Source of the DNA: an uncultured Cohaesibacter sp.
GTDB lineage: Bacteria; Pseudomonadota; Alphaproteobacteria; Rhizobiales; Cohaesibacteraceae
Assembly (NCBI RefSeq): GCF_963676485.1
Contig: NZ_OY781114.1
Span: 4,046,501 to 4,110,500, forward strand
Direction: 5' to 3'
DNA length: 64,000 nucleotides
Shown here piece by piece: positions 7,897 to 41,750 of the stretch (position 1 is its first letter; every line of letters starts with the position of its first letter). The notes below the pieces were generated by a model. The model was not told where the DNA came from and did no database searches. It worked only from the letters and a program-made list of their open reading frames with translations. Position numbers and translations under genes: made by a program.

Positions 7897-8688
7897 ATGG
7901 TTGGCCAAATGCGTTATGCGGACACTTCTGTTGCAGGAAATATGGCCATACCTCGCCATTTGGCAGTCATTATGGACGGGAATGGGCGTTGGGCAAAGGA
8001 GCGCAAGCTGACCCGCACGCATGGCCATCGCCAAGGTGTCGTCGCTGTTCGTGAAATTGTTTCCAATGCCATCGAACTCAATATCGAATATCTGACTCTA
8101 TTCGCCTTCAGTTCGGAAAACTGGTCTCGCCCTCAATCTGAAGTTCGCGACCTGTTGGGGTTGCTTAAGCTCTTCATCAACAAGGATCTGGCTACCTTGC
8201 ACAAACAGAATGTGCGGGTGCTGGTCATTGGCAGCCGACAAGGGCTTGAAAGGGACATTGCTGCGCTCCTGGAAAAGGCCCAGCTGCGCACGCGCGATAA
8301 CACCGGCCTTACCCTACAAATTGCCTTCAATTACGGGGCTCGTCAGGAAATCGTGGATATGGTGAAATCTTTGGCCCGAGAGGTCGAAGAAGGGTGCTTG
8401 GCTGCTGATTCCATTGATGAAGCCCTTGTTTCTCGATCTCTATATACCGGTGAGGTGCCTGATCCTGACGTGATCTTGCGTACCAGTGGCGAGAAGCGGT
8501 TGAGTAATTTTCTCCTCTGGCAGGCTGCCTATTCGGAGTTTATTTTCGTGGATTGTTATTGGCCGGATTTTAATCGACAGCAGCTTGAACTGGCGCTCGT
8601 GGAATATGGTCGGCGCAATCGTCGTTTTGGTCAGGTCGCCGTTGACGATGTGGACCTCAATCAGACTGTGCTCGTCTCTGGCGGGTAG
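7897..8688 (+). CDS. uppS: Isoprenyl transferase (undecaprenyl diphosphate synthase)
   Basis: It condenses isopentenyl diphosphate units onto farnesyl diphosphate to make the C55 carrier lipid for peptidoglycan and LPS synthesis. The cis-prenyltransferase signature VIMDGNGRWAKER sits at about residues 25-37; TLFAFSSENWSRP and the C-terminal ILRTSGEKRLSNFLLWQ segment are also present. I chose the ATG at 7897 because GGGACGGGAA lies just upstream; the frame is open to 7813. The resulting 263 residues fit the family. Confidence 0.95.
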   Translation: MVGQMRYADTSVAGNMAIPRHLAVIMDGNGRWAKERKLTRTHGHRQGVVAVREIVSNAIELNIEYLTLFAFSSENWSRPQSEVRDLLGLLKLFINKDLATLHKQNVRVLVIGSRQGLERDIAALLEKAQLRTRDNTGLTLQIAFNYGARQEIVDMVKSLAREVEEGCLAADSIDEALVSRSLYTGEVPDPDVILRTSGEKRLSNFLLWQAAYSEFIFVDCYWPDFNRQQLELALVEYGRRNRRFGQVAVDDVDLNQTVLVSGG

Positions 8689-8711
8689 AACCATGCGTAT
8701 TACGCAGGTTC

Positions 8712-9608
8712 ATGAAATATACGGGAGAAGCTGTTCTGGACTCTTTAAAGAAACCCGCAGGGGAGGCTGAGAACAAGACGCAAAAAAAGAGCCTCTGGTC
8801 TGATCTGATGGTCAGGCTTGCGTCGGGTGTTGTTCTTGCAGCGGCTGCTTTCGCTGTCACTTGGTGGGGCGGCATTGCCTTTGCATTGTTTTTTGGTGCA
8901 GTTACCGTCTTGATCTATCGCGAATGGCTGGGCATGGTCGGCGAAGCGCCTTTCCAAACGCCCGCCATGACGGGATATATCGTGATCATAGGCTCTCTCT
9001 TCTGTTTCTATTTCAAGGATTGGGAGGCCGGACTGGCGATACCCGCCTTCGGGGCGGGGTATCTGTTTTTTGCACGCTGTTCTTATCGGATGGCGCGTTG
9101 GTGTGGTCTGGGCATCCTTTATGCGGCAGCGTTCGGCGGTGCCATTTTCCTCCTTCGTCAAGATCCCGACTATGGTTTGCACGCCATTCTGGTTTTGTTT
9201 GCGCTGGTTTGGGGCACGGACGTTTCGGCCTATTTCGTTGGCAAATATGTCGGCGGGCCGAAGCTCTGGAAGCGAGTCTCTCCCAAGAAGACATGGTCAG
9301 GCTCTGTGGGTGGCCTTGTTCTGGGGTCAGGATTTGCCGTTTTCGTGGCTGTTCTTCTTGGTATTGATCCGAATGTCAGGTTGATTGCAATGCTCGGTGG
9401 ACTTTCTGTGCTCTCGCAATTGGGGGATCTTGCGGAGTCACAAATGAAGCGTATGTTTGACGTCAAGGATTCCGGTACTCTCATTCCCGGTCATGGCGGT
9501 GTCATGGATCGGGTGGATGGTTTGCTTTTTGCCGTTGTGGCTGCGGCCCTGATCGGTGTGGTTTTTGGTGATGTTCATTCTGTGGCAACCGGTTTTCTGA
9601 TCCAGTAG
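8712..9608 (+). CDS. cdsA: Phosphatidate cytidylyltransferase
   Basis: It makes CDP-diacylglycerol from phosphatidate and CTP at the inner membrane. The 298-residue protein has about seven or eight hydrophobic helices after a 35-residue hydrophilic N terminus. The CDS signature is visible near the C terminus (QMKRMFDVKDSGTLIPGHGG followed by VMDRVDG), and GTDVSAYFVGKYVGGPKLW is also typical. It begins 23 bases after uppS and is followed by dxr. Confidence 0.94.
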   Translation: MKYTGEAVLDSLKKPAGEAENKTQKKSLWSDLMVRLASGVVLAAAAFAVTWWGGIAFALFFGAVTVLIYREWLGMVGEAPFQTPAMTGYIVIIGSLFCFYFKDWEAGLAIPAFGAGYLFFARCSYRMARWCGLGILYAAAFGGAIFLLRQDPDYGLHAILVLFALVWGTDVSAYFVGKYVGGPKLWKRVSPKKTWSGSVGGLVLGSGFAVFVAVLLGIDPNVRLIAMLGGLSVLSQLGDLAESQMKRMFDVKDSGTLIPGHGGVMDRVDGLLFAVVAAALIGVVFGDVHSVATGFLIQ

Positions 9609-9663
9609 GACATGGGCACGTTCCCGGTCCTAATCTTTATTTTGATCTAAATATGAGTAGGTT

Positions 9664-10872
9664 ATGTCCAAGACTTCATCCGTTGGCTCCTCCGCGCAAG
9701 GCCATGAAGGCGCACCGAAAACCATTTCTGTGCTGGGGGCGAGCGGATCAGTTGGGGATTCTGCTCTCGATATCATTGCCGGCTCGCCTGATCGTTATCG
9801 TGTCAATGCGCTGACAGCCAACCGCAATGTTGACAAGCTTGCCCGTGCCGCCATCAAGGCCGGAGCTCGGTTTGCTGTTGTTGCTGATGAAGGTTTTTAT
9901 GCCGATCTGAAGGATGCCTTGTCTGGTCACGACATCGAAGTTGGCGCAGGCCAGAGCGCCGTTGAGGAAGCTGCGGGCCGTCCGGCGGATATTGTTATCG
10001 GAGCCATCGTTGGCGCGGCAGGCATCTGCCCCACAATGGCGGCTCTGCAAGCGGGTAATCAGGTTGCTTTGGCCAATAAGGAAGCTCTGGTATGCGCTGG
10101 CGATCTGGTGATGGCGCAAGCTGAACGATTGGGTAAGCCGATTCTGCCGGTCGATTCAGAGCATAGCGCCGTGTTTCAGGTCTATGAGCGCGCTAACCGC
10201 GAAGAAATTGCCAAGATCGTGCTGACCGCTTCGGGCGGACCTTTTCGGACCTGGGATAAGGATGCCATTGCCAATGCGTCGATTGAGCAGGCTTTGGCCC
10301 ATCCCAATTTCTCGATGGGCAATAAGATCACGATAGACAGTGCGTCGATGATGAATAAGGGGCTGGAATTGATCGAAGCTCATCATCTTTATGGCGTGTC
10401 TGCGGACAAACTGAAGGTCGTTGTGCATCCCCAACAGATCATTCATGGCATGGTGGCCTATAGCGACGGCTCTTTGTTGGCGCAGCTTGGGGCGCCTGAC
10501 ATGCGCATCCCCGTTGCGCATTGCCTCGCATGGCCAGAGCGGGCGCCTGCCAAGACGGACCGTATCTCTCTGGTTGAGATTGGGCAATTCACCTTTGAAG
10601 CCCCTGACTATGAACGCTTTCCCTGCTTGCGTCTTGCCAAAGAGGCGCTCGAAAGAGGGGATAGCCTGCCCAATATCCTGAATGCCGCAAACGAGATCGC
10701 TGTGGCGGCTTTTCTTGCCGGAGATATCGCGTTTGGCGGCATTGCCGAGCTTGTCGAAAAGGTCATGGCGGACTTTGTCCGGCGGGGTGAGGTTGGTGCT
10801 GCGCGTGACGTCAATGACGTGCTGGCGCTCGATCATGCGGCCCGGGGTGTTGCGCGGCAGATGTTGCGCTGA
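9664..10872 (+). CDS. dxr: 1-deoxy-D-xylulose 5-phosphate reductoisomerase
   Basis: It is the committed step of the non-mevalonate isoprenoid pathway, converting DXP to MEP with NADPH. The 402-residue protein shows the nucleotide-binding loop GASGSVGDSALDII (about residue 24), NKEALVCAG, the metal/substrate segment DSEHSAVFQ, SGGPFR and ASMMNKGLELIEAH. Its placement beside uppS links precursor supply to undecaprenyl synthesis. The ATG at 9664 follows a GTAGGTT spacer. Confidence 0.96.
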   Translation: MSKTSSVGSSAQGHEGAPKTISVLGASGSVGDSALDIIAGSPDRYRVNALTANRNVDKLARAAIKAGARFAVVADEGFYADLKDALSGHDIEVGAGQSAVEEAAGRPADIVIGAIVGAAGICPTMAALQAGNQVALANKEALVCAGDLVMAQAERLGKPILPVDSEHSAVFQVYERANREEIAKIVLTASGGPFRTWDKDAIANASIEQALAHPNFSMGNKITIDSASMMNKGLELIEAHHLYGVSADKLKVVVHPQQIIHGMVAYSDGSLLAQLGAPDMRIPVAHCLAWPERAPAKTDRISLVEIGQFTFEAPDYERFPCLRLAKEALERGDSLPNILNAANEIAVAAFLAGDIAFGGIAELVEKVMADFVRRGEVGAARDVNDVLALDHAARGVARQMLR

Positions 10873-29610: not shown

Positions 29611-29626
29611 CACTAAGGAAAAGGCG

Positions 29627-32230
29627 ATGCCGTTTGCGACAGAAAATGCAAGCGCGGTCGTATCCTGCAGCCTGGAGGAAGTAATGATAGAGAAGGGCTT
29701 TTCTCAACCAACCGAACGAATTGTGCGGTTGAAAAACCAGATTCTGAACGCGACGCCTTATGTTGAGTCCGAGCGTGCAGTTCTGGCTACTGAGGCCTAC
29801 AAGGAAAGTGAACATCTTTCCCCGATCATGCGTCGCGCCAAGGTGGCCGAAAAGATTTTCAATAATCTGCCGGTTACCATCCGTGATGACGAACTGATCG
29901 TCGGTGCCATCACCAAAAATCCGCGTTCAACGGAAATCTGCCCGGAATTCTCCTATGACTGGGTAGAAGCCGAATTTGAAACCATGGCAACCCGCATGGC
30001 TGACCCTTTCGAAATTCCGAAAGAAACAGCTGCCGAGCTGCATGAAGCCTTCAAATACTGGCCGAACAAAACCACTAGTTCCTATGCTGACTCCCTGATG
30101 TCATCGGAGACCAAGGACTGCATCTCCAACGGCGTCTTCACCGTTGGCAACTATTTCTATGGCGGTGTTGGTCACGTTTGTGTCGACTATGGCAAGATCA
30201 TGAAGATCGGCTTCCGCGGCATCATCGAAGAAGCCGTCAAAGCCATGGATGCGATGGACAAGAATGATCCATCCTACATCAAAAAACGCCAGTTCTACGA
30301 AGCCATCATCATTACCTACAATGCTGCGATCAACTTCGCACATCGGTATGCTGACAAGGCTTTGGAACTCTCCAGGGCGGAAAGCAACCCGACCCGCAAG
30401 GCCGAGTTGGAACAGATTGCCAAAAACTGCGCACGCGTTCCAGAATATCCTGCTTCCAACTTCTGGGAAGCTTGCCAGATCTTCTGGTTCATCCAGTCTC
30501 TGATGCAGATTGAATCCTCTGGCCACTCCATTTCTCCGGGCCGCTTCGACCAGTATATGAACGACTATCTGCAGGCCGATACGTCCATCGACCGTGCTTT
30601 CGCTCAGGAGCTGATCGACTGCATCTGGATCAAGCTGAACGACGTTAACAAGACCCGCGATGAAGTGTCCGCTCAGGCCTTTGCCGGCTATGCCGTTTTC
30701 CAGAATCTGTGCGTTGGTGGCCAGACTTCTGACGGTCTGGATGCAACGAATGACGTGTCCTACATGTGCATGGAAGCTGTCTCTCACGTTCGTTTGCCAG
30801 CGCCTTCCTTCTCCATTCGTGTGTGGCAGGGTACGCCTGATGAATTCCTCTTCCGTGCTACGGAAGTTGTTCGTCTGGGTCTTGGTGTTCCGGCCATGTA
30901 TAATGATGAAGTGATCGTGCCGGCGCTTCAGAACCGCGGTGTTTCGCTTGCGGATGCTCGTGACTACGGCATTGTCGGGTGCGTTGAACCGCAGCCAATC
31001 CATAAAGCGGAAGGCTGGCACGACGCTGCCTTCTTCAACGTTGCCAAGATCCTCGAAATCACGCTTCACGGCGGCAAGGTTGGCGAAACCCCGGGGACCA
31101 TTGGCAACAAGCAGCTTGGTCCGGTTACCCCAGATGTATCGCAGTGGAAGTCTCTTGATGATTTCTACGATGCTTTCGAAAAACAGATGGCTTATTTCGT
31201 CTATCATCTGGTGGAAGCTGACAACTGCGTTGACATTGCACACGCCGAAATGGCTCCGCTGCCGTTCCAGTCTGCAATGGTTGATGATTGCCTTGGTCGC
31301 GGCATGTCCGTGCAGGAAGGCGGCGCATTGTACAACTTCACCGGCCCGCAGGCCTTCGGCGTAGCGGATACCGGCGACTCTGTCTATGCGATGAAGAAAT
31401 TCGTCTTTGACGAAAAGAAAATCAGCCCGGCAGAACTCAAGGAAGCTCTGGTCAACAACTTCGGTCAGCCGGTTGGCGGTGCAGCTCCTGCTACTGCTGA
31501 ACTGTCTGAAGATCAGGTTTACGCTGCTGTTCGCAAGGTTCTTGCCAACAACAACTCCATGGATGTTTCCGCTCTGAAAGATCAGGTCTATCAGACCCTT
31601 GGATCTTCCAACGCTGCACCGAGCGGCAAATATGCTGACATTCACCGCATGCTCGACAGCGCTGAATGCTTCGGTAACGACATCGATGAAGTCGATCTGA
31701 TCGCTCGCAAATGCGCTGAGATCTATTGCAAGGAAGTCGAAAAATACACCAACCCGCGCGGCGGTCAGTTCCAGGCTGGTATCTATCCTGTGTCTGCCAA
31801 CGTGCTGTTCGGTAAAGATGTTGCTGCGTTGCCTGACGGACGTCTGGCCAAAGCACCTCTTGCAGACGGAGTATCACCTCGTCAGGGCAAGGACGTCAAT
31901 GGTCCGACCGCTGCGGCAAACTCGGTTGCCAAGCTCAACCACTTCATTGCCTCCAACGGCACCCTTTATAACCAGAAGTTCCTGCCATCCGCCCTTGCTG
32001 GTGACAATGGCATCCTGAACTTCACTTCGGTTGTTCGTTCCTACTTCGATCACAAGGGCATGCATGTCCAGTTCAACGTCGTGGACAGAAAGGTCTTGCT
32101 CGAAGCCCAGCGTGAGCCGGAAAAACACAAGGATCTCGTGGTCCGCGTGGCTGGTTATAGCGCCCAGTGGGTCGTGCTCGCCAAGGAAGTGCAGGACGAC
32201 ATCATCAGCCGTACCGAGCAAAGCCTCTAG
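29627..32230 (+). CDS. Glycyl-radical diol dehydratase (B12-independent 1,2-propanediol/glycerol type)
   Basis: The signature enzyme of the microcompartment: radical dehydration of 1,2-propanediol (or glycerol) to the aldehyde. Residues equivalent to the Clostridium butyricum glycerol dehydratase set, as I recall it, are all present at a constant offset of 19: His183, His300, Ser301, Cys452 and Glu454 (in GCVEPQ) and Asp466; the radical Gly843 is in RVAGYS. The context GCVEPQPIHKAEGWHD differs from choline lyase CutC. At 867 residues it is about 80 longer than the clostridial enzyme: 19 at the N terminus and about 61 inserted at residues 613-668, where an amphipathic helix (SEDQVYAAVRKVLANN) resembles an encapsulation peptide. 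AAGGAAAAGG precedes the ATG. 1,2-propanediol is the likelier substrate given the PocR sensor. Confidence 0.92.
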   Translation: MPFATENASAVVSCSLEEVMIEKGFSQPTERIVRLKNQILNATPYVESERAVLATEAYKESEHLSPIMRRAKVAEKIFNNLPVTIRDDELIVGAITKNPRSTEICPEFSYDWVEAEFETMATRMADPFEIPKETAAELHEAFKYWPNKTTSSYADSLMSSETKDCISNGVFTVGNYFYGGVGHVCVDYGKIMKIGFRGIIEEAVKAMDAMDKNDPSYIKKRQFYEAIIITYNAAINFAHRYADKALELSRAESNPTRKAELEQIAKNCARVPEYPASNFWEACQIFWFIQSLMQIESSGHSISPGRFDQYMNDYLQADTSIDRAFAQELIDCIWIKLNDVNKTRDEVSAQAFAGYAVFQNLCVGGQTSDGLDATNDVSYMCMEAVSHVRLPAPSFSIRVWQGTPDEFLFRATEVVRLGLGVPAMYNDEVIVPALQNRGVSLADARDYGIVGCVEPQPIHKAEGWHDAAFFNVAKILEITLHGGKVGETPGTIGNKQLGPVTPDVSQWKSLDDFYDAFEKQMAYFVYHLVEADNCVDIAHAEMAPLPFQSAMVDDCLGRGMSVQEGGALYNFTGPQAFGVADTGDSVYAMKKFVFDEKKISPAELKEALVNNFGQPVGGAAPATAELSEDQVYAAVRKVLANNNSMDVSALKDQVYQTLGSSNAAPSGKYADIHRMLDSAECFGNDIDEVDLIARKCAEIYCKEVEKYTNPRGGQFQAGIYPVSANVLFGKDVAALPDGRLAKAPLADGVSPRQGKDVNGPTAAANSVAKLNHFIASNGTLYNQKFLPSALAGDNGILNFTSVVRSYFDHKGMHVQFNVVDRKVLLEAQREPEKHKDLVVRVAGYSAQWVVLAKEVQDDIISRTEQSL

Positions 32231-33586: not shown

Positions 33587-33868
33587 ATGCAACAAGAAGC
33601 ATTGGGTATGGTTGAAACCAAAGGCCTCGTAGGCGCAATCGAAGCAGCTGATGCGATGGTCAAATCCGCAAATGTCGGCCTGATCGGCTACGAAAAAATC
33701 GGATCCGGCTTCGTGACTGTCATGGTTCGTGGTGATGTTGGTGCAGTGAAGGCTGCTACCGATGCGGGCGCAGTGGCTGCCGAGAAAGTTGGCACCGTGG
33801 TTTCCGTCCATGTCATCCCGCGCCCACATACCGAAGTTGAAAAAATCCTGCCGAAAAGCGCGGAATAA
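33587..33868 (+). CDS. BMC-H shell protein (PduA/PduJ-like hexamer)
   Basis: A 93-residue single BMC domain ([20 protein letters not shown]... VARGD-like [17 protein letters not shown]... [19 protein letters not shown]). It should form the main facet tile with a small central pore for diol and aldehyde passage. The ATG has GGAGAG seven bases upstream. It is the first of the three consecutive shell genes. Confidence 0.95.
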
Positions 33869-33893: not shown

Positions 33894-34718
33894 ATGAATA
33901 ACGATCTTGTCGAACAGATCATGGGCGAGGTTATGCGCAAAATGGGATCGGAAGCATCTTCCGCTCCCGCACAACCTGCAGCCCCTGCAGCCCAAAGCTG
34001 CGCAGCCAAACTGCCTGCAGCTTGCGGCCTGACCGAGTTTGTCGGAACTGCAATCGGCCACACTATCGGTCTGGTGATTGCAAACGTAGACTCTTCCCTG
34101 CATGAGCAGATGAAAATCGACAAGAAATACCGCTCCATTGGTATTCTTGGTGCTCGTACCGGTGCTGGTCCGCACATCTTTGCTGCTGACGAAGCCGTCA
34201 AGGCAACCAACAGTGAAATTATCCTGATCGAACTGCCTCGCGATACTGAAGGTGGCGCTGGTCATGGTTCTTTGATCTTGTTCGGTGCTGAAGATGTTTC
34301 CGATGCCCGCCGCGCAGTTGAAGTCGCCTTGAGCGAAGTGGAACGCACCTTTGGTGATGTCTATGGCAACTCTGCCGGTCATCTGGAATTCCAGTATACC
34401 GCTCGTGCCAGCACGGCTCTTCAAAAAGCCTTTGGCGCACCGCTTGGTCAATCGTTCGGTATCACCGTCGGTGGCCCGGCTGCCATTGGCGTTCTTCTGG
34501 CTGATACGGCTGCCAAAGCGGCAACCGTCGATGCGGTTGGCTATTCTTCACCAGGCAATGGCGGAACCAGCTTCTCGAACGAAGTCATCTTCGCTTTCAG
34601 CGGTGACTCTGGCGCTGTGCGTCAGGCGATCATTGCTGCACGTGAAGTGGGCAAGCAGGTTCTCAAAGCCATGGAACCTGATGAAGATCTTCCTTCCAGC
34701 TCAACCCCTTACATTTGA
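33894..34718 (+). CDS. pduB: BMC-T shell protein (PduB-like)
   Basis: A 274-residue tandem-domain trimer-forming shell protein. LTEFVGTAIGHTIGLVIANVD, YRSIGILGARTGAGPHIFAADEA and QSFGITVGGPAAIGVLLADTA are PduB/EutL-class segments. The N terminus (NNDLVEQIMGEVMRKMGSEA) is an amphipathic helix of the kind that joins shell to core in PduB, followed by an Ala/Pro linker. It sits between two BMC-H genes with short gaps, each with its own ribosome site (AAAAGGAG). Confidence 0.92.
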   Translation: MNNDLVEQIMGEVMRKMGSEASSAPAQPAAPAAQSCAAKLPAACGLTEFVGTAIGHTIGLVIANVDSSLHEQMKIDKKYRSIGILGARTGAGPHIFAADEAVKATNSEIILIELPRDTEGGAGHGSLILFGAEDVSDARRAVEVALSEVERTFGDVYGNSAGHLEFQYTARASTALQKAFGAPLGQSFGITVGGPAAIGVLLADTAAKAATVDAVGYSSPGNGGTSFSNEVIFAFSGDSGAVRQAIIAAREVGKQVLKAMEPDEDLPSSSTPYI

Positions 34719-34739: not shown

Positions 34740-35354
34740 ATGTCGCAGAAAAGCCTCGGTTTGATTGAAACGACAGGGCTGACTGCTGCCATTGAAGCGG
34801 CGGACGCTGCCGTGAAATCCGCAAATGTCGAGCTTGTCGGCTACGAACTGGCCAAGGGAGGTGGCATGACGGTTGTCAAGCTCTATGGCGAAGTCGGTGC
34901 AGTCAATGCTGCCGTGGCAGCGGCAACCGCCGCTGCTGCCAAAATCAACGCGGTTGTGTCCACGAAAGTGATCGCACGGCCTGCTGATGGCATGGAATGC
35001 ATGGTCATCTCCGAAGAAACGGTTGGTGCTGACCTCCCAAAGCCACCTGAGCCTCCTGAACCGACACCACCAACAGGTGGGGGAGACGGACCGAAATCCG
35101 GTCCTGACGATTCCGGTAATGGCGGCTCGGAAAAAGGTTCTGAAGCCACTGGCAACGAGACCGGGGCGGATGCTCCGGTCCCCGAGCAGACTGAAGGCAA
35201 GGCCAATGCTGCTCCCGAAGAAGCGAAATCTGAGGAACTGGATCTCCAACCGGTTTCTGAGGTCAAGCCCATCGAGAGCGCCAAACCTGCAGAGTCTGCC
35301 ACCAAGCCAGCTACGACACGGAAGACCGGCCGAGGTAGACGCAGACGCGCCTGA
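34740..35354 (+). CDS. BMC-H shell protein with long Pro/Glu-rich, Arg-ended extension
   Basis: Residues 1-90 are a standard BMC domain (SLGLIETTGLTAAIEAADAA...). Then follow about 110 residues of low-complexity sequence: a Pro-rich hinge (PPEPPEPTPPTGGG), a Gly/Ser/Glu/Ala-rich acidic stretch, and a strongly basic end (TRKTGRGRRRRA). PduK and EutK also carry C-terminal extensions, but with different folded domains; here the tail looks disordered. It may bind nucleic acid, cargo or the inner face of the shell. GGAAAGGAGG precedes the ATG. Confidence 0.88.
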   Translation: MSQKSLGLIETTGLTAAIEAADAAVKSANVELVGYELAKGGGMTVVKLYGEVGAVNAAVAAATAAAAKINAVVSTKVIARPADGMECMVISEETVGADLPKPPEPPEPTPPTGGGDGPKSGPDDSGNGGSEKGSEATGNETGADAPVPEQTEGKANAAPEEAKSEELDLQPVSEVKPIESAKPAESATKPATTRKTGRGRRRRA

Positions 35355-35440
35355 CCGGTTTGCCTTCCGACCCCGACAGACTTTCATCCCGCGGCTTGTC
35401 TGAGCTGCGGGGTGACAAAGAGAGAGCAAAGAAAAGAGCC

Positions 35441-36097
35441 ATGCAACTGACTGAGCAAATGATCGAAAAGGTTGTCGCCGATATTCTGGCAAAGGCAACA
35501 AGCGGTGCAGCGTTACAGAGCGATCCTGCCTTGGTTCCGGTTGGTGTGTCGAACCGCCATATCCACCTGTCCAGAGAAGACATGGAGATGCTGTTTGGCC
35601 CGGGGCAAAATCTGACCCGCATGAAGGCCATGAAGCAGCCCGGACAATATGCGGCGGAAGAAACAGTTACATTGAAAGGCCCCAAAGGCGAGCTACGGCG
35701 CGTTCGGGTTCTTGGGCCATTTCGCAAGCAAACACAGGTCGAGATCTCCGTATCAGATGGTTTTGCGCTGGGCATCAAGGCCCCGATGCGCATGTCCGGT
35801 GATCTGGACGAGAGCGCGGGTCTGGAAATCCTCGGCCCGCTTGGTTCGGTCAAGCTGGAGCAGGGCGTAATCGTTGCGCAGCGTCACATCCATATGCATC
35901 CAGAGGACGCCAAGAAGGCGGGTGTCAGCAATGGCGACATCGTCAATGTGGAAGCGCAAGGAATGCGCGGTGGCATTCTCAAGAATGTCGCGGTGCGCGT
36001 GTCCGAGGCTTCCGCTCTGGAAATTCATATCGATGTCGAAGAAGCCAACGCTCTTGGCCTCAAAAACAATGATCAGGTGCGGATTTGCAAATCCTGA
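35441..36097 (+). CDS. pduL: Phosphate propanoyltransferase PduL
   Basis: It converts acyl-CoA (propionyl- or acetyl-CoA) and phosphate to acyl-phosphate and recycles CoA inside the compartment. The zinc-site segments are visible: VGVSNRHIHLSREDMEMLFG, RVLGPFRKQTQVEIS and IVAQRHIHMHPEDAKKAG. The N-terminal 20 residues (QLTEQMIEKVVADILAKATS) form an encapsulation-type amphipathic helix. The start at 35441 gives 218 residues; the longer open frame from 35360 starts within the spacer. Confidence 0.94.
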   Translation: MQLTEQMIEKVVADILAKATSGAALQSDPALVPVGVSNRHIHLSREDMEMLFGPGQNLTRMKAMKQPGQYAAEETVTLKGPKGELRRVRVLGPFRKQTQVEISVSDGFALGIKAPMRMSGDLDESAGLEILGPLGSVKLEQGVIVAQRHIHMHPEDAKKAGVSNGDIVNVEAQGMRGGILKNVAVRVSEASALEIHIDVEEANALGLKNNDQVRICKS

Positions 36098-36152: not shown

Positions 36153-37013
36153 ATGCGCAGTCCCGACGAACTATTGCACGACTTTGCAGACCTGATCAGA
36201 CAGGAGGCAATTCTGCCCAAATCTGAATGGGCAGAAGGCCCGCTGAAGGTCGGTGTCGATCTGGGTACGGCCAATATCGTGCTGTCTGTTGTTGATGCGC
36301 AAAACCGGCCCGTTGCAGGGGCAAGCTATCGCTCGACGGTCGTTCGCGATGGCATTGTGGTTGACTATGTTGGTGCTGTTCAGGCTGTCCGGTCTCTCAA
36401 GACGACCATTGAGGAGCGTCTGGGCCAGCGGCTTGTTCGGGCTGCAACTGCCATTCCCCCGGGTATCCATGCCGGCAACGCCAAGGCCATTGGCAATGTG
36501 GTTGAGGCTGCCGACATGGAGCTTGTTGAGATTGTCGATGAACCGACAGCTGCATCGCGCGTATTGATGGTGAGCGATGGTGCCGTCGTTGACGTGGGCG
36601 GCGGCACCACTGGCATCAGCATTCTCAAAGACGGCAAGGTGCTGGGCTCCTTTGATGAAGCAACCGGCGGAACGCACATGACGCTTGTTCTGGCCGGTGC
36701 CTATGGCATGAGCTTTGATGAAGCCGAGGACCATAAGCTCAATGTTGCCAATGACAAGGATGTATTTCCTGTCGTACGGCCGGTGGTCGATAAGATGGCG
36801 AGTATCGTATCCAGATTTCTGGATGGCCGAGATGTTGATGACATCTATGTGGTCGGTGGCGCTTGCACTTTTTCCGGGTTCGAAAAAGCCTTTGAAAAGC
36901 AGACGGGCAAGAGAGTGATCAAACCTGCCGAACCCTTGCTGGTGACGCCCCTTGGCATTGCCATGTATGAGCAAGACGCCGGCCAGACTGCAAAGGCAGG
37001 GAGAGTGCAATGA
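36153..37013 (+). CDS. eutJ: EutJ-like actin-fold ATPase
   Basis: A putative chaperone or reactivase of the HSP70/actin superfamily found in ethanolamine and other BMC loci. The phosphate-binding motifs are KVGVDLGTANIVLSVVD, DEPTAASRVLM and VVDVGGGTTGISIL, and the adenosine motif is VVGGACTFSGFEKAF. The 286-residue length agrees with EutJ. Its exact role is unproven in any system. The stop overlaps the next start by four bases (ATGA), so the two are coupled. Confidence 0.88.
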   Translation: MRSPDELLHDFADLIRQEAILPKSEWAEGPLKVGVDLGTANIVLSVVDAQNRPVAGASYRSTVVRDGIVVDYVGAVQAVRSLKTTIEERLGQRLVRAATAIPPGIHAGNAKAIGNVVEAADMELVEIVDEPTAASRVLMVSDGAVVDVGGGTTGISILKDGKVLGSFDEATGGTHMTLVLAGAYGMSFDEAEDHKLNVANDKDVFPVVRPVVDKMASIVSRFLDGRDVDDIYVVGGACTFSGFEKAFEKQTGKRVIKPAEPLLVTPLGIAMYEQDAGQTAKAGRVQ

Positions 37014-37843
37014 CGCCAGATATCTCCCGTATCATTCAGACTGTTCTGGTAGAGATTATTTCAGACAAGATTGTCGAGCGACTGGAAGCAACGAAGCGCA
37101 AAGCGCTGGTTTTGCTGGATATGTCGGACGCCGGGATTGGAGATGCCTTTCAGGAACTGAACAAGCTGTATCGCGACAGTTGGTCACTTGATGTCGCCGC
37201 CTCGCGCGAAGTGTTTGACGCCAGACCCTCCATCTTCCCTGGTCAGGCACTCGCGATACCCCAAACGGCTTGGACCATTCTTGATGTGGCATCTCCAATG
37301 ACCGGCATCTCGTCGCTTCTGGCCGATAAAAGCATGCTCATTGTGCCCAATATGAGCATGGCGCTGGCAGGCAAGGTGGCTTATGGCATCAGCGATGATA
37401 CCCCTTCCAGACTTATGGCAGCGGCGCTGGAAACAGGCAAACTGGTTGTGGCGGTGAAAGATGCCTGCTGCCCGGTCTGTCGCGATCAGGATGAACGGCT
37501 CTTTGTGGCCAATGATGCCTATCGGGCGATGATGATCGCCAATCTTGCAGCGCTGGACAGCTTCGGGGTTCGCCTATGTCGCGCGCCAAAGCTTTCGCAG
37601 GCCGTATCGCGGGCTTTGCAGCCATTTGTGCCGGACAATGGCACGCCCAAGCCAAGACAGAATACGGCTTTCATCACACCTCACGCCCTGACAAGTCTCT
37701 CCGCCGATAGCAAAGGCGTATTCGGCTGGCAAGACGCCAAGCTTGCCAGCGGCTCAACAGTTAACATCGCCAAGGGTGTTGTGGTCACGCCACTCGCTCT
37801 TGAAGAACTGAGGGCACGCAATATCAGCGTCATCAGGCATTGA
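37010..37843 (+). CDS. BMC-associated flavoprotein-like protein
   Basis: A 277-residue protein with SLLADKSMLIVPNMSMALAG and GKLVVAVKDACCPVCR, resembling the flavoprotein (decarboxylase-fold) proteins that recur in glycyl-radical BMC loci. The last 50 residues (ALTSLS... VNIAKGVVVTPLALEELRAR) carry the short VTPLA motif common to several BMC-locus proteins. A CPVC motif could bind metal. The N terminus (TPDISRIIQTVLVEIISDKI) is another amphipathic helix. Function is unknown; a role in flavin or activase reduction is only a guess. Confidence 0.7.
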   Translation: MTPDISRIIQTVLVEIISDKIVERLEATKRKALVLLDMSDAGIGDAFQELNKLYRDSWSLDVAASREVFDARPSIFPGQALAIPQTAWTILDVASPMTGISSLLADKSMLIVPNMSMALAGKVAYGISDDTPSRLMAAALETGKLVVAVKDACCPVCRDQDERLFVANDAYRAMMIANLAALDSFGVRLCRAPKLSQAVSRALQPFVPDNGTPKPRQNTAFITPHALTSLSADSKGVFGWQDAKLASGSTVNIAKGVVVTPLALEELRARNISVIRH

Positions 37844-37855
37844 AAGGTCAGGATC

Positions 37856-38131
37856 ATGTATTTGGCTAAAGTCATCGGAACCGTTGTTTCCACCAGCAAG
37901 GATCCGTCCCTGTCCGGATCCAAGCTGCTGATCGTGGCGAAGCTCAACGAAAAGCAGGAACCGATCGGAGAGACGGAGATTGCTGTCGATACGGTCGGGG
38001 CAGGCAATGACGAGGTGGTGATCGTTACCCGCAACAGTTCGGCGCGAAAGGCGGCGACGCAGGAAAACTCGGTCACTGATGCTGCCATCGTTGGCATCGT
38101 GGATGCCGTTGAGACCAAGCATAACTGGTAA
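37856..38131 (+). CDS. eutN: BMC-P pentameric vertex protein (EutN/CcmL-like)
   Basis: A 91-residue single-domain pentamer that caps the vertices of the shell. MYLAKVIGTVVSTSKDPSL, LLIVAKLNE and AVDTVGAGNDEVVIV are the family hallmarks. It lies 12 bases after the flavoprotein gene and 11 before the GlcG-like gene, with a GGTCAGGATC site. Confidence 0.95.
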   Translation: MYLAKVIGTVVSTSKDPSLSGSKLLIVAKLNEKQEPIGETEIAVDTVGAGNDEVVIVTRNSSARKAATQENSVTDAAIVGIVDAVETKHNW

Positions 38132-38142
38132 GGACATGGTCG

Positions 38143-38667
38143 ATGCTGACAGCAGAAAACAGGGAGCAGATTTCAGAGCTGATCAATCGCGAGATCGCGC
38201 GATTGAACCCTGGTTACCTGAACCAGACCCTGAGCTTGAAGGAAGCCAAGCGCCTGGCGGACCTTGCGCAGAGGGAGGCTTTGAGGATTGGTGTGCCAAT
38301 TGCTGTTTCGATTGCCGATCCGCATGGGCAGCAGATCCTGTTTCATCGGATGGAAAACAGTCTTCCGGTAAGCGCACAGCTGGCAACCGACAAGGCGCAG
38401 ACAGCTGCGACATTTCGCATGACGACCGAAGACCTGGGCAAGCTGGCTCAGCCGGGTGAAATGCTTTTTGGCGTGCAGGCCAATATGGGCGGGCACGTCG
38501 TGATTTTCGGCGGCGGCATTCCATGCTGTCGCGATGGCGCGGTTATCGGCGCCATCGGAGTGAGTGGAGGCACTGCGTATCAAGACGCGCAAATTGCCGA
38601 ACGCGCTCTAGACCTTTTTTCGGAAAAACCAGAGCCAGTCTCTGAGGAAGGAAGAAACCGTGAATGA
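38143..38667 (+). CDS. GlcG/HbpS/PduO-C-type (DUF336) protein
   Basis: A 174-residue protein of the GlcG/HbpS family, which also forms the C-terminal domain of PduO. LKEAKRLADLAQREALRIGVPIAVSIAD and GGGIPCCRDGAVIGAIGVSGG are typical. HbpS binds heme and PduO-C binds heme as well, but the BMC role is unsettled. The N terminus (ENREQISELINREIARLN) is a helix that could target it to the lumen. Its end overlaps the aldehyde dehydrogenase start by 8 bases. Confidence 0.82.
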   Translation: MLTAENREQISELINREIARLNPGYLNQTLSLKEAKRLADLAQREALRIGVPIAVSIADPHGQQILFHRMENSLPVSAQLATDKAQTAATFRMTTEDLGKLAQPGEMLFGVQANMGGHVVIFGGGIPCCRDGAVIGAIGVSGGTAYQDAQIAERALDLFSEKPEPVSEEGRNRE

Positions 38668-40363
38668 TCAACAGATCTCCGAAGCTGTGACAAGAGTTCT
38701 CAGCAGCTTTGGCGGAGCAAGCGCCGCGCCTGCGGTTCCCGCTCCGGTCAAGAATAAAGCGGTGGCAAAAAACACCCCTGCAGAGGATCAAGTGGCCAGT
38801 CTCGTGTCCCAGATCCTTGGTGAAAGCAAATCCGGTCGTTCCAAGGCAAAGCCAGACTATGTACCCAGCCCGACCAAATGCGGCTGGGAACGTGCGCAAA
38901 AGGGTGCTGCGTGTGATGATGCCATGGTCTCCGATGTCATCGCTAGGGTGCTTTCGGAATCCATGGGGAGAGCCCCCTCAACACCTTCAAAGCCTGCGTC
39001 TTCCTGTGCCTCCATTGACGTTTCTGATGCAGAAGCAACGGAACTGGGGGATGGTGTCTTTGCTACCATGGATGAGGCGGTTGAGGCTGCGGCTGCGGCG
39101 CAACGCCAGTATCTCTTCTGTTCCATGGAAGAACGGCAGTCCTTTGTCGATGGCATTCGCGAAGTGATCTTGCAGCCTCAGACGCTGGACCGGATTTCCC
39201 ATATGGGTGCCGAGCAGACCGGCATGGGCAAGTATGAACACAAGATCATCAAGAACCGTCTGGCTGCGGAAAAAACGCCGGGTACCGAAGACCTGACGAC
39301 AGAAGCCTGCAGCGGCGACGGCGGCCTGACACTGGTGGAATATTCCGCTTATGGCGTTATTGGCTCCATCACGCCGACGACGAACCCGACTGAGACCATC
39401 ATCTGCAATTCCATCGGAATGCTGGCTGCTGGCAACTCGGTGGTCTATAGCCCTCATCCGCGCGCGCGCGTCGTCTCCCTTTTGACCATCAAGCTGATCA
39501 ACCGCAAGCTGGCTACGCTTGGAGCGCCTGCCAACCTGATCACCACGGTGCAGGAGCCGTCCATCGACAATACCAACGCCATGATGCAGCATCCGAAGAT
39601 CCGCATGCTGGTAGCAACCGGCGGCCCAGGTATCGTCAAGACGGTCATGTCTACCGGCAAGAAAGCCATCGGGGCAGGGGCTGGTAATCCGCCGGTGGTT
39701 GTTGATGAAACCGCCGACATTGAAAAGGCTGCCGTTGATATCATCAATGGCTGCAGCTTCGACAACAATCTGCCGTGCATCGCCGAGAAGGAAATCGTCG
39801 CTGTCAACCAGATTGCGGACTATCTCATTTCCTGCATGAACAAATGTGGCGCCTATCTGGTAGAAGATCCAGCTGTCGTTAAGAAGCTCGAAGCGCTGGT
39901 GATCAACGACAAGGGCGGGCCGCAGACCTCTTGCGTTGGCAAAAGCGCGGTCTATCTGCTCGACAAGGTCGGCATCAAGGTCGGGGATGATATCAAGGTT
40001 ATCCTGATCGATTTGCCCAAAGACCATGTCTTCGTTCAGGAAGAGCTGATGATGCCGATCCTGCCGCTGGTTCGTGTTCCTGATGTTGATGAGGCCATCG
40101 ATTTCGCCGTTGAGGTCGAGCATGGCAACCGTCACACGGCAATGATGCATTCCACGAATGTGCGCAAACTGACCAAGATGGCCAAGCTCATCCAGACGAC
40201 CATTTTCGTCAAGAATGGCCCATCCTATGCGGGCATTGGTGTTGGCGGTGAAGGCTATACCACCTTCACGATTGCTGGTCCGACTGGCGAAGGGCTCACA
40301 GGCCCGAAAGCCTTTGCGCGCAAACGCAGATGCGTGATGGTTGAGTCGCTGAATGTGAGATAG
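38660..40363 (+). CDS. CoA-acylating aldehyde dehydrogenase (PduP/EutE-like)
   Basis: It oxidises the aldehyde to acyl-CoA with NAD+. The catalytic Cys373 is in NNLPCIAEKE, and the NAD/CoA region includes GVIGSITPTTNPTET and ATGGPGIVKTVM. At 567 residues it is about 100 longer than PduP, all at the N terminus: three amphipathic, encapsulation-like helices (about residues 4-17, 42-56 and 86-103), each of the form I/V-xx-V-L, joined by Ala/Pro or Ser-rich linkers. The start is GTG at 38660 with GGAAGGAAG upstream; it overlaps the previous gene by 8 bases. Confidence 0.93.
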   Translation: MNDQQISEAVTRVLSSFGGASAAPAVPAPVKNKAVAKNTPAEDQVASLVSQILGESKSGRSKAKPDYVPSPTKCGWERAQKGAACDDAMVSDVIARVLSESMGRAPSTPSKPASSCASIDVSDAEATELGDGVFATMDEAVEAAAAAQRQYLFCSMEERQSFVDGIREVILQPQTLDRISHMGAEQTGMGKYEHKIIKNRLAAEKTPGTEDLTTEACSGDGGLTLVEYSAYGVIGSITPTTNPTETIICNSIGMLAAGNSVVYSPHPRARVVSLLTIKLINRKLATLGAPANLITTVQEPSIDNTNAMMQHPKIRMLVATGGPGIVKTVMSTGKKAIGAGAGNPPVVVDETADIEKAAVDIINGCSFDNNLPCIAEKEIVAVNQIADYLISCMNKCGAYLVEDPAVVKKLEALVINDKGGPQTSCVGKSAVYLLDKVGIKVGDDIKVILIDLPKDHVFVQEELMMPILPLVRVPDVDEAIDFAVEVEHGNRHTAMMHSTNVRKLTKMAKLIQTTIFVKNGPSYAGIGVGGEGYTTFTIAGPTGEGLTGPKAFARKRRCVMVESLNVR

Positions 40364-40487: not shown

Positions 40488-40790
40488 ATGAATGCAAGGA
40501 TCATCAATGCTCCGCAACCGGATGTGTTGCTGATGCTCCAACGTCGCATGCCCCCGCATGGCCGAACATGGGTCAAGGACCATAGTGTCGGATCTATCGG
40601 TCTTATACAGGCAAGTGTGACGGACCTGTTCTTCTTCTCGGATCTTGCCTTGAAGGCTGCCGACGTATTCACCGTCGAGATCTATGGCACATGCCCTCAG
40701 CATGTAACGACATTGGCAATTCTGGGTGAAACCTCCGCGGTAAAAGCGGCTATGGAATCGATCGAGATTGCAGGACAAAACAGCTTCTGA
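40488..40790 (+). CDS. BMC-H shell protein, EutS/PduU-like permuted type
   Basis: A 100-residue shell protein. The order of elements, with an N-terminal strand region (IINAPQPDVLLMLQRRM) before HSVGSIGLIQASVTDLFFFSDLALKAADV and VKAAMESIEIAG at the end, fits the circularly permuted EutS/PduU class. Such proteins form bent or plugged hexamers. GGAGGGACC precedes the ATG. It stands apart from the other shell genes, next to the activase gene. Confidence 0.8.
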   Translation: MNARIINAPQPDVLLMLQRRMPPHGRTWVKDHSVGSIGLIQASVTDLFFFSDLALKAADVFTVEIYGTCPQHVTTLAILGETSAVKAAMESIEIAGQNSF

Positions 40791-40829: not shown

Positions 40830-41750
40830 ATGGCCCCAATTAAATACGATCAGGAAGGTGTCGTCTTCGACATCCAGCGCTACTCAATCCATGATGGCCC
40901 CGGCGTGAGGACAATTGTCTTTCTCAAGGGATGTCCGTTGCGGTGCCGGTGGTGCAGCAATCCAGAATCCCAAGACCCCAAGCCCGAGCTTTTCTACAAG
41001 GATTCCAGCTGCATCCACTGTGGCAAATGCCTTCCGGTTTGTCCGGTGTCTGCCTTGTCTCGTGACAATCCGGGATTTGTAGATCGAGACAAATGCATCC
41101 GCTGTGGCGCCTGTGCCGAGATTTGTCCGACCGATGCCCTGACCCGCTCGGGCAAGCTGATGACTGTCAATCAGGTCATTCAGGAGGTCCGCAAGGATGC
41201 GACCCATTATCGCCGGTCTGGCGGCGGGATCACACTCTCCGGTGGTGAGCCTTTGATGCAGAGTGATTTTGCGCGTGAGTTGCTCAAGGCCTGTCATGAA
41301 CAGGGCTGGAATACAGCAATGGAGACCACGGGCTTTACGACGCCTGAAGTCATTGCCGATGTCATGCCTCACGTCGATCATGCGCTGCTGGATATCAAGT
41401 CGATTGATCCCGCAGTGCATATGGCCAACACCGGCGTTGATAACCGCATCATTCTTGAAAATGCCATCCGAACCGCCATGACGAGCAAGTCTGTTGTCGT
41501 GCGTGTCCCTGTTGTGCCCGGCGTCAATGACAGTGAACAGGTGATTGCAGATATCGGCAATTTTGCAAAGATGTTGCCCGGTGTCGAGACGGTTCATTTG
41601 CTGGGCTATCACTCCTATGGTGAAAATAAATACGGGCTGTTGAACAGGGACTATCCCATGGGCAATACGCCTGATCTGCCCAAGGATGCTTTGCCACCGC
41701 TGGTAAAGGTCATAGAGTCTCTTGGTTTGAAATGCATGATCGGCGGCTAG
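40830..41750 (+). CDS. Glycyl-radical enzyme activating enzyme (radical SAM)
   Basis: It installs the radical on Gly843 of the dehydratase using S-adenosylmethionine and a [4Fe-4S] cluster. The radical-SAM motif CPLRCRWC (CxxxCxxC) sits near residue 32; two ferredoxin-type clusters follow (CIHCGKCLPVCPVSALS and CIRCGACAEICPTDAL), then the SAM-binding GGGITLSGGEPL. The 306-residue length fits this GRE-activase subfamily. It lies 39 bases before metK, which makes its co-substrate. Confidence 0.95.
   Translation: MAPIKYDQEGVVFDIQRYSIHDGPGVRTIVFLKGCPLRCRWCSNPESQDPKPELFYKDSSCIHCGKCLPVCPVSALSRDNPGFVDRDKCIRCGACAEICPTDALTRSGKLMTVNQVIQEVRKDATHYRRSGGGITLSGGEPLMQSDFARELLKACHEQGWNTAMETTGFTTPEVIADVMPHVDHALLDIKSIDPAVHMANTGVDNRIILENAIRTAMTSKSVVVRVPVVPGVNDSEQVIADIGNFAKMLPGVETVHLLGYHSYGENKYGLLNRDYPMGNTPDLPKDALPPLVKVIESLGLKCMIGG

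Follow-up and report, generated by a model that had tools for sequence, protein, structure and literature searches.

A two-helix insert in a Cohaesibacter glycyl-radical dehydratase is probably an intramolecular encapsulation peptide

The glycyl-radical dehydratase encoded in the 64,000-nucleotide stretch of DNA that we analysed (the window), from a marine bacterium of the genus Cohaesibacter, carries an internal segment that we believe, with a probability of about 0.85, to be an intramolecular encapsulation peptide packing the enzyme into a GRM3-type compartment. This reading accounts best for the data: it goes with the association between the insert and shell genes, with the structure of a close relative solved without the insert, and with a helix-turn-helix model of the segment. 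According to the mechanism that we propose, a pair of short helices linked through a turn would hang on flexible linkers between the dehydratase body and its C-terminal part; presumably exposed at the surface of the window enzyme, they would bind shell proteins and/or the equivalent helices of other cargo in the core, and the dehydratase, together with the activating enzyme bound to it, would end inside the GRM3-type compartment. The idea of an internal targeting helix, put forward in a first-pass annotation of this DNA, is right but was already in print (Zarzycki 2017, Ferlez 2019 and Kalnins 2020, in the sections drawn on here). Since a built-in packing tag was described in this enzyme family in 2017, the find is mostly an ordinary one: a member of a described kind, for which we provide a corrected anatomy and some extra comparative evidence.

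The enzyme, a glycyl-radical 1,2-propanediol dehydratase of the GrpM type, is encoded at 29684..32230 (848 residues from the likely ATG at 29684; all window features given here are on the forward strand), within a longer open reading frame at 29627..32230 whose 867 residues provide the numbering used below. Both a PFL-like and a glycine-radical domain are present (Pfam PF02901 and PF01228). It is 71% identical to PDB entry 9rco, whose title reads 1,2-propanediol dehydratase (identities to 9rco and 5i2a were obtained with VIA-align 2 run on Foldseek's matches, which falls short of a full PDB search), and this identity, together with the locus, suggests that the window enzyme dehydrates 1,2-propanediol. 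Its nearest named relative among the best 80 of 356 matches is the dehydratase of Cohaesibacter marisflavi, which is 98% identical. Met20 stands directly ahead of the conserved enzyme body and, as read from the sequence, its ATG is preceded by a Shine-Dalgarno-like GGAGGAA (29674..29680); of 46 aligned genes, 38 likewise have a motif of this kind ahead of the corresponding start. Translation thus likely begins at ATG 29684, but no firmer statement is warranted because ATG 29627 is itself preceded by a Shine-Dalgarno-like AAGGA (29615-29619). An N-terminal peptide on the window dehydratase, which we also considered, seems unlikely given the likely start at Met20, although the AAGGA ahead of ATG 29627 leaves some room for one.

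The first-pass annotation had placed the segment at 31463-31630, which corresponds exactly to residues 613-668, and the helix that it had singled out, SEDQVYAAVRKVLANN, is found at residues 627-642. Its size estimate of about 61 residues came from offsets of 19 and 80 relative to the clostridial enzyme. The offset is indeed 19 early in the chain and 80 from residue 671, but it already reaches 26 before residue 613. The initial 19 likely reflects the over-long reading frame, as judged from the GGAGGAA ahead of Met20 and from the 38 similarly preceded starts. As for the remainder, a single 61-residue insert is ruled out: a separate 7-residue loop, ETPGTIG (residues 487-493, 31085..31105), and a net 54 residues at 614-670 together make up the 61. 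In the phmmer alignment, Clostridium butyricum glycerol dehydratase (1r8w) covers residues 20-613 and 671-865 and has three residues of its own between the two aligned blocks, where the window enzyme has 57, hence the net 54; the insert therefore occupies 31466..31636. In alignments of dehydratases, the ETPGTIG loop occurs in rows of the same genus only, and not in every one of them (L020 is without it). The GC content of the insert (0.526, versus 0.531 for the whole gene) gives no sign of a recent foreign insertion, a possibility that we dropped.

Among the genome_contigs relatives, 78 of 80 carry an insert at this one site, with 66-113 residues spanned by the anchors G613 and F682; the remaining two, L102 and L109, have 35 and 44 residues between the anchors (the 80 loci are the best of 356 matches, more distant relatives being outside the set). 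The first-pass annotation had described one helix in the insert, whereas the alignment of six enzymes and the AlphaFold2 model place two there: helix 1 at residues 628-641 (31508..31549; AlphaFold2 model, conservation and pN/pS) and helix 2 at residues 647-660 (31565..31606; AlphaFold2 model and pN/pS). The Ala/Gly/Ser linkers that it had described were found again on the N-side (residues 614-627, 31466..31507), where the linker is rich in these residues and of variable length among relatives; the C-side linker spans residues 661-670 (31607..31636; alignment, pN/pS and pLDDT). Alignments of 6 and of 46 enzymes (in the larger one the window enzyme is set beside those of 45 of the 80 loci, every row insert-bearing) contain two conserved blocks within the insert, with linkers that vary in length and sequence. 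Columns 631, 635, 638, 639, 650 and 654 are hydrophobic in all 46 sequences; within helix 1, columns 631, 634, 635, 638 and 639 are hydrophobic in 98-100% and column 632 in 93% (n=46), and the columns between hydrophobic positions are mostly polar, 634 being an exception.

Selection distinguishes the same parts. Pooled pN/pS amounts to 0.16 for the core, 0.21 for helix 1 (627-642) and 0.22 for helix 2 (645-658), versus 0.63 for the linkers (617-625 and 660-667); these are uncorrected Nei-Gojobori values for the window against 17 alphaproteobacterial relatives, so that all 17 pairs share the window, and pS is high among the more distant pairs. Both helices are thus under purifying selection close to the level of the core and the linkers are not, which is the pattern expected for two functional helices on free tethers. 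The wide range of lengths between the anchors in the 78 loci would fit a neutral surface expansion devoid of function, but the low helix values and the association with shell genes described below lead us to disfavour this reading so strongly that we regard it as the least credible one.

In the AlphaFold2 model (mean pLDDT 75.2, pTM 0.77), the insert forms a helix-turn-helix (pLDDT about 73 and 65 for the two helices) flanked by low-confidence linkers, with pLDDT below 50 at 617-625 and 661-665. Values below 50 occur in parts of the C-terminal core as well, which makes the low values of the linkers a weak sign of flexibility. The structure prediction that the first-pass annotation had proposed as a check returns paired helices on low-confidence tethers. 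Two traits can be recognized here: the poorly conserved, flexible linker of encapsulation peptides (from the pN/pS of linker versus core and the pLDDT below 50), and the internal insertion of GRM3/4/5 1,2-propanediol dehydratases, made of two helices of ~15 residues, a short loop and linkers, with no counterpart in glycerol dehydratase. Encapsulation peptides are amphipathic helices of 15-20 residues; here a helix is predicted, but amphipathicity of the single sequence fails as proof of a peptide, since 34% of shuffles equal helix 1 in hydrophobic moment. For the 46-sequence profile the result is borderline, with p 0.04-0.07, varying with the chosen ends.

The gene lies in a microcompartment locus of the kind expected for this class, in which the dehydratase is encoded alongside BMC shell proteins, an aldehyde dehydrogenase, PduL and an activating enzyme. 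Downstream of the dehydratase are a BMC-H shell protein (33587..33868; PF00936), a PduB-type BMC-T shell protein (33894..34718; TIGR04501 and NF011944 above cut-off), a BMC-H protein with a long C-terminal extension (34740..35354; PF00936 at residues 5-81 of 204), a PduL phosphotransacylase (35360..36097; PF06130 and NF011652), a BMC-P vertex protein (37856..38131; PF03319), an acylating aldehyde dehydrogenase (AldDH; 38660..40363; NF011927), a further BMC-H protein (40488..40790; PF00936) and a radical-SAM activating enzyme (40830..41750; PF04055 plus 4Fe-4S domains). The locus also encodes an iron alcohol dehydrogenase, a SAM synthetase and a PocR-type sensor and response regulator. We named the last BMC-H protein GrpU because its GTCPQH motif fits the GrpU motif GXCPQ(N/H) (PMC6325248). 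With GrpU present, and neither PduS nor PduT found among the locus genes scanned with domain and family profiles, the locus fits subtype GRM3b, from which the latter two are mostly absent. At about 3.62 Mb on G000:C1, some 456 kb away from the main locus, a PduT-like BMC-T gene (L149:7704-8258) adjoins a PduS-like flavoprotein gene (8319-9761) in the vicinity of ABC-transporter genes; this distant satellite pair could feed electrons to the compartment.

The first-pass annotation had found the insert much like the N-terminal helices of other cargo, a likeness that stands only weakly: when the insert profile was run against the window reading frames, the best non-self match was the N-terminus of AldDH, over its first and second peptide-like helices, but with an E-value of only 0.95. 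Extended to the 15042 reading frames of the window and the 80 loci, of which 91 are AldDH, the comparison yielded 7 AldDH among the top 50 matches outside the glycyl-radical enzymes (hypergeometric 1.9e-8), and the six AldDH matches printed are all at the N-terminus. We give this enrichment little weight, since EutJ is equally enriched (6 of the same top 50, for 43 of the 15042 reading frames) through a stretch that is internal and no targeting peptide, and since conserved kinship alone can produce enrichment. The resemblance of the insert to other cargo peptides is slight. By eye, the window AldDH has three N-terminal helices resembling encapsulation peptides, QQISEAVTRVLSSFG, EDQVASLVSQILGES and AMVSDVIARVLSES (38660-39000); two such helices have been described for its GRM3 counterpart (PMC5311937). 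Short N-terminal stretches that may be encapsulation peptides are also seen in the EutJ-like protein (36153-37010), in a protein without family matches (37010-37840) and in an HbpS-like protein (38143-38664).

The presence of the insert follows that of shell genes across relatives. Among loci at least 50% identical, near-duplicates counted, shell genes were present in the fetched stretch of all 82 insert-bearing members, versus one of nine distinct insert-free enzymes, the other eight being without (the nine are L102, L109, L127, L128, L129, L130, L131, L137 and L138; stretches reached up to about 10 kb per side, the contigs of L129 and L130 measuring 7.9 and 12.1 kb). Fisher's test gives 1e-10 if kinship is ignored. 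On the tree, which was built by a quick search, which left out 12 duplicates or near-duplicates (L029, L036, L041, L042, L044, L056, L060, L083, L104, L106, L132 and L133) and from which L137 and L138, fetched later, are absent, only three independent pairs can be formed; shells are distributed as expected in 2.8 of the 3 on average and never in the opposite way, with a median p of 0.25.

Two insert-free members deserve comment. L102 (Erwinia mallotivora) is nested in well-supported insert-bearing groups, which makes a loss of the insert most likely. L109 (Commensalibacter intestini) falls within a 73-row group that is insert-bearing apart from L102 and L109; its long branch and poorly supported place make a loss probable only. 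L102 and L109 retain the dehydratase and the activating enzyme, their fetched stretches being without shell genes. Whole-genome checks, which cover these two of the nine insert-free members, detected no BMC domain in the Commensalibacter genome (G418) and four in that of E. mallotivora (G417), on another contig and beside a 1152-residue CutC-like enzyme. Around Commensalibacter, 200 genomes were searched for further relatives at E 1e-200, and none turned up.

A close relative folds without the insert. The chain deposited for Raoultella planticola as 9rco, 9rcp, 9rcq and 9rcr is identical to the L079 product in residues 2-588 and 645-846, two residues standing in place of the 56 between; unlike that product, it is without the insert. 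Since a relative this close to the window enzyme was solved in that form, the fold does not need the insert (our literature search found no publication on 9rco). In Rhodopseudomonas palustris, removal of the insert left a dehydratase that was more soluble, still active and still bound by its activating enzyme (PMC5311937). From the position of the insert, just ahead of the C-terminal part that bears the radical glycine, one could imagine that the activating enzyme or an electron donor docks there, but such a role is very improbable: the truncated R. palustris enzyme retains this binding, and an activating-enzyme gene is present in the fetched stretches of all nine distinct insert-free relatives.

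The one insert-free enzyme found in a shell locus, L130 (L130:6836-9322 of G783:C108, in a genome from the phylum of Clostridium intestinale), is a dehydratase-like glycyl-radical enzyme whose gene neighbours encode BMC-H, BMC-T, an activating enzyme and an aldehyde dehydrogenase. Its N-terminus reads MAIDERLIEDTIKEVLRKIQKNSSSIGSQS; the start, MAIDERLIEDTIKEVLRKIQKNSSSIGSQSIGQGK, is built like a classical N-terminal peptide, and the moment of this helix is equalled by 1.4% of shuffles. L130 may therefore be an exception to the rule that GRM3-5 dehydratases have no N-terminal peptide, if its locus belongs there. A search for its relatives in four genomes of its order (E 1e-200) returned only enzymes from the same genome, 45-48% identical, and a search in 26 genomes of its class (E 1e-240) returned one, 49% identical. 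We see about an even chance that the peptide is a mobile unit, not tied to one position in the chain: within one family of dehydratases it would be internal in most members, missing where no shell genes are nearby, or N-terminal as in L130, a single case. Were this so, position would be irrelevant to targeting and a tethered helix would suffice. This apparent swap of an internal for an N-terminal peptide, the only bolder point of our analysis, comes from one locus.

These comparisons also bear on whether the insert could instead be an oligomerisation or core-aggregation module that glues dehydratase dimers and cargo together with no shell contact. In favour of such a module, the insert of the Roseburia inulinivorans enzyme is reported to belong to an oligomer interface, and the R. 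palustris enzyme comes out of solution when complete, whereas its truncated form stays soluble for longer (PMC5311937). Against it, the insert tracks shell genes, and the insert-free L130 enzyme, itself encoded in a shell locus, carries a peptide-like extension at its N-terminus; both observations are nevertheless compatible with a pure core role. We consider a module of this kind possible though rather unlikely in its strict form, and it overlaps with the encapsulation peptide that we favour, which allows contacts with shell and core alike. Internal tags suggest that cargo with busy termini could be packed into engineered compartments. To this, our analysis adds a natural comparison, namely relatives without the insert and without nearby shell genes, one relative being seemingly tagged at its N-terminus instead; such natural pairs suit experiments on the need for the helices and on the role of their position.

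The window insert closely resembles described systems. Zarzycki (2017) named an 'intramolecular encapsulation peptide' in the GRM3 1,2-propanediol dehydratase of R. palustris BisB18, and the description in PMC5311937 agrees with ours in the type of enzyme, the two helices of ~15 residues, the short loop, the poorly conserved linkers and the absence of the insert from C. butyricum glycerol dehydratase; the two differ in species and in the extra 7-residue loop of Cohaesibacter, and were likened by description, not by sequence. Size and proposed role also match the '~60-amino-acid insertion' that Ferlez (2019) reports for GRM3, GRM4 and GRM5 dehydratases, which in that review's account are without an N-terminal peptide (PMC6325248), and Kalnins (2020) gives 'inside the flexible surface loops' as one of the locations of such peptides (PMC6971018). 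The portions of PMC5311937, PMC6325248 and PMC6971018 relied on here contain no direct test of targeting by such an insert. In the grp locus of Escherichia coli, GrpM (L028) has an insert at the same place and is encoded with a comparable set of shell and pathway genes, but the gene order differs and the locus includes genes for a propionate kinase and a permease, for which no counterpart was seen among the window cluster genes scanned. The diol dehydratase of R. inulinivorans (5i2a; GRM5) has extra residues at the same place, through which phmmer aligns straight; it is more distant, being about 50% identical to the window enzyme, and its insert has diverged in sequence.
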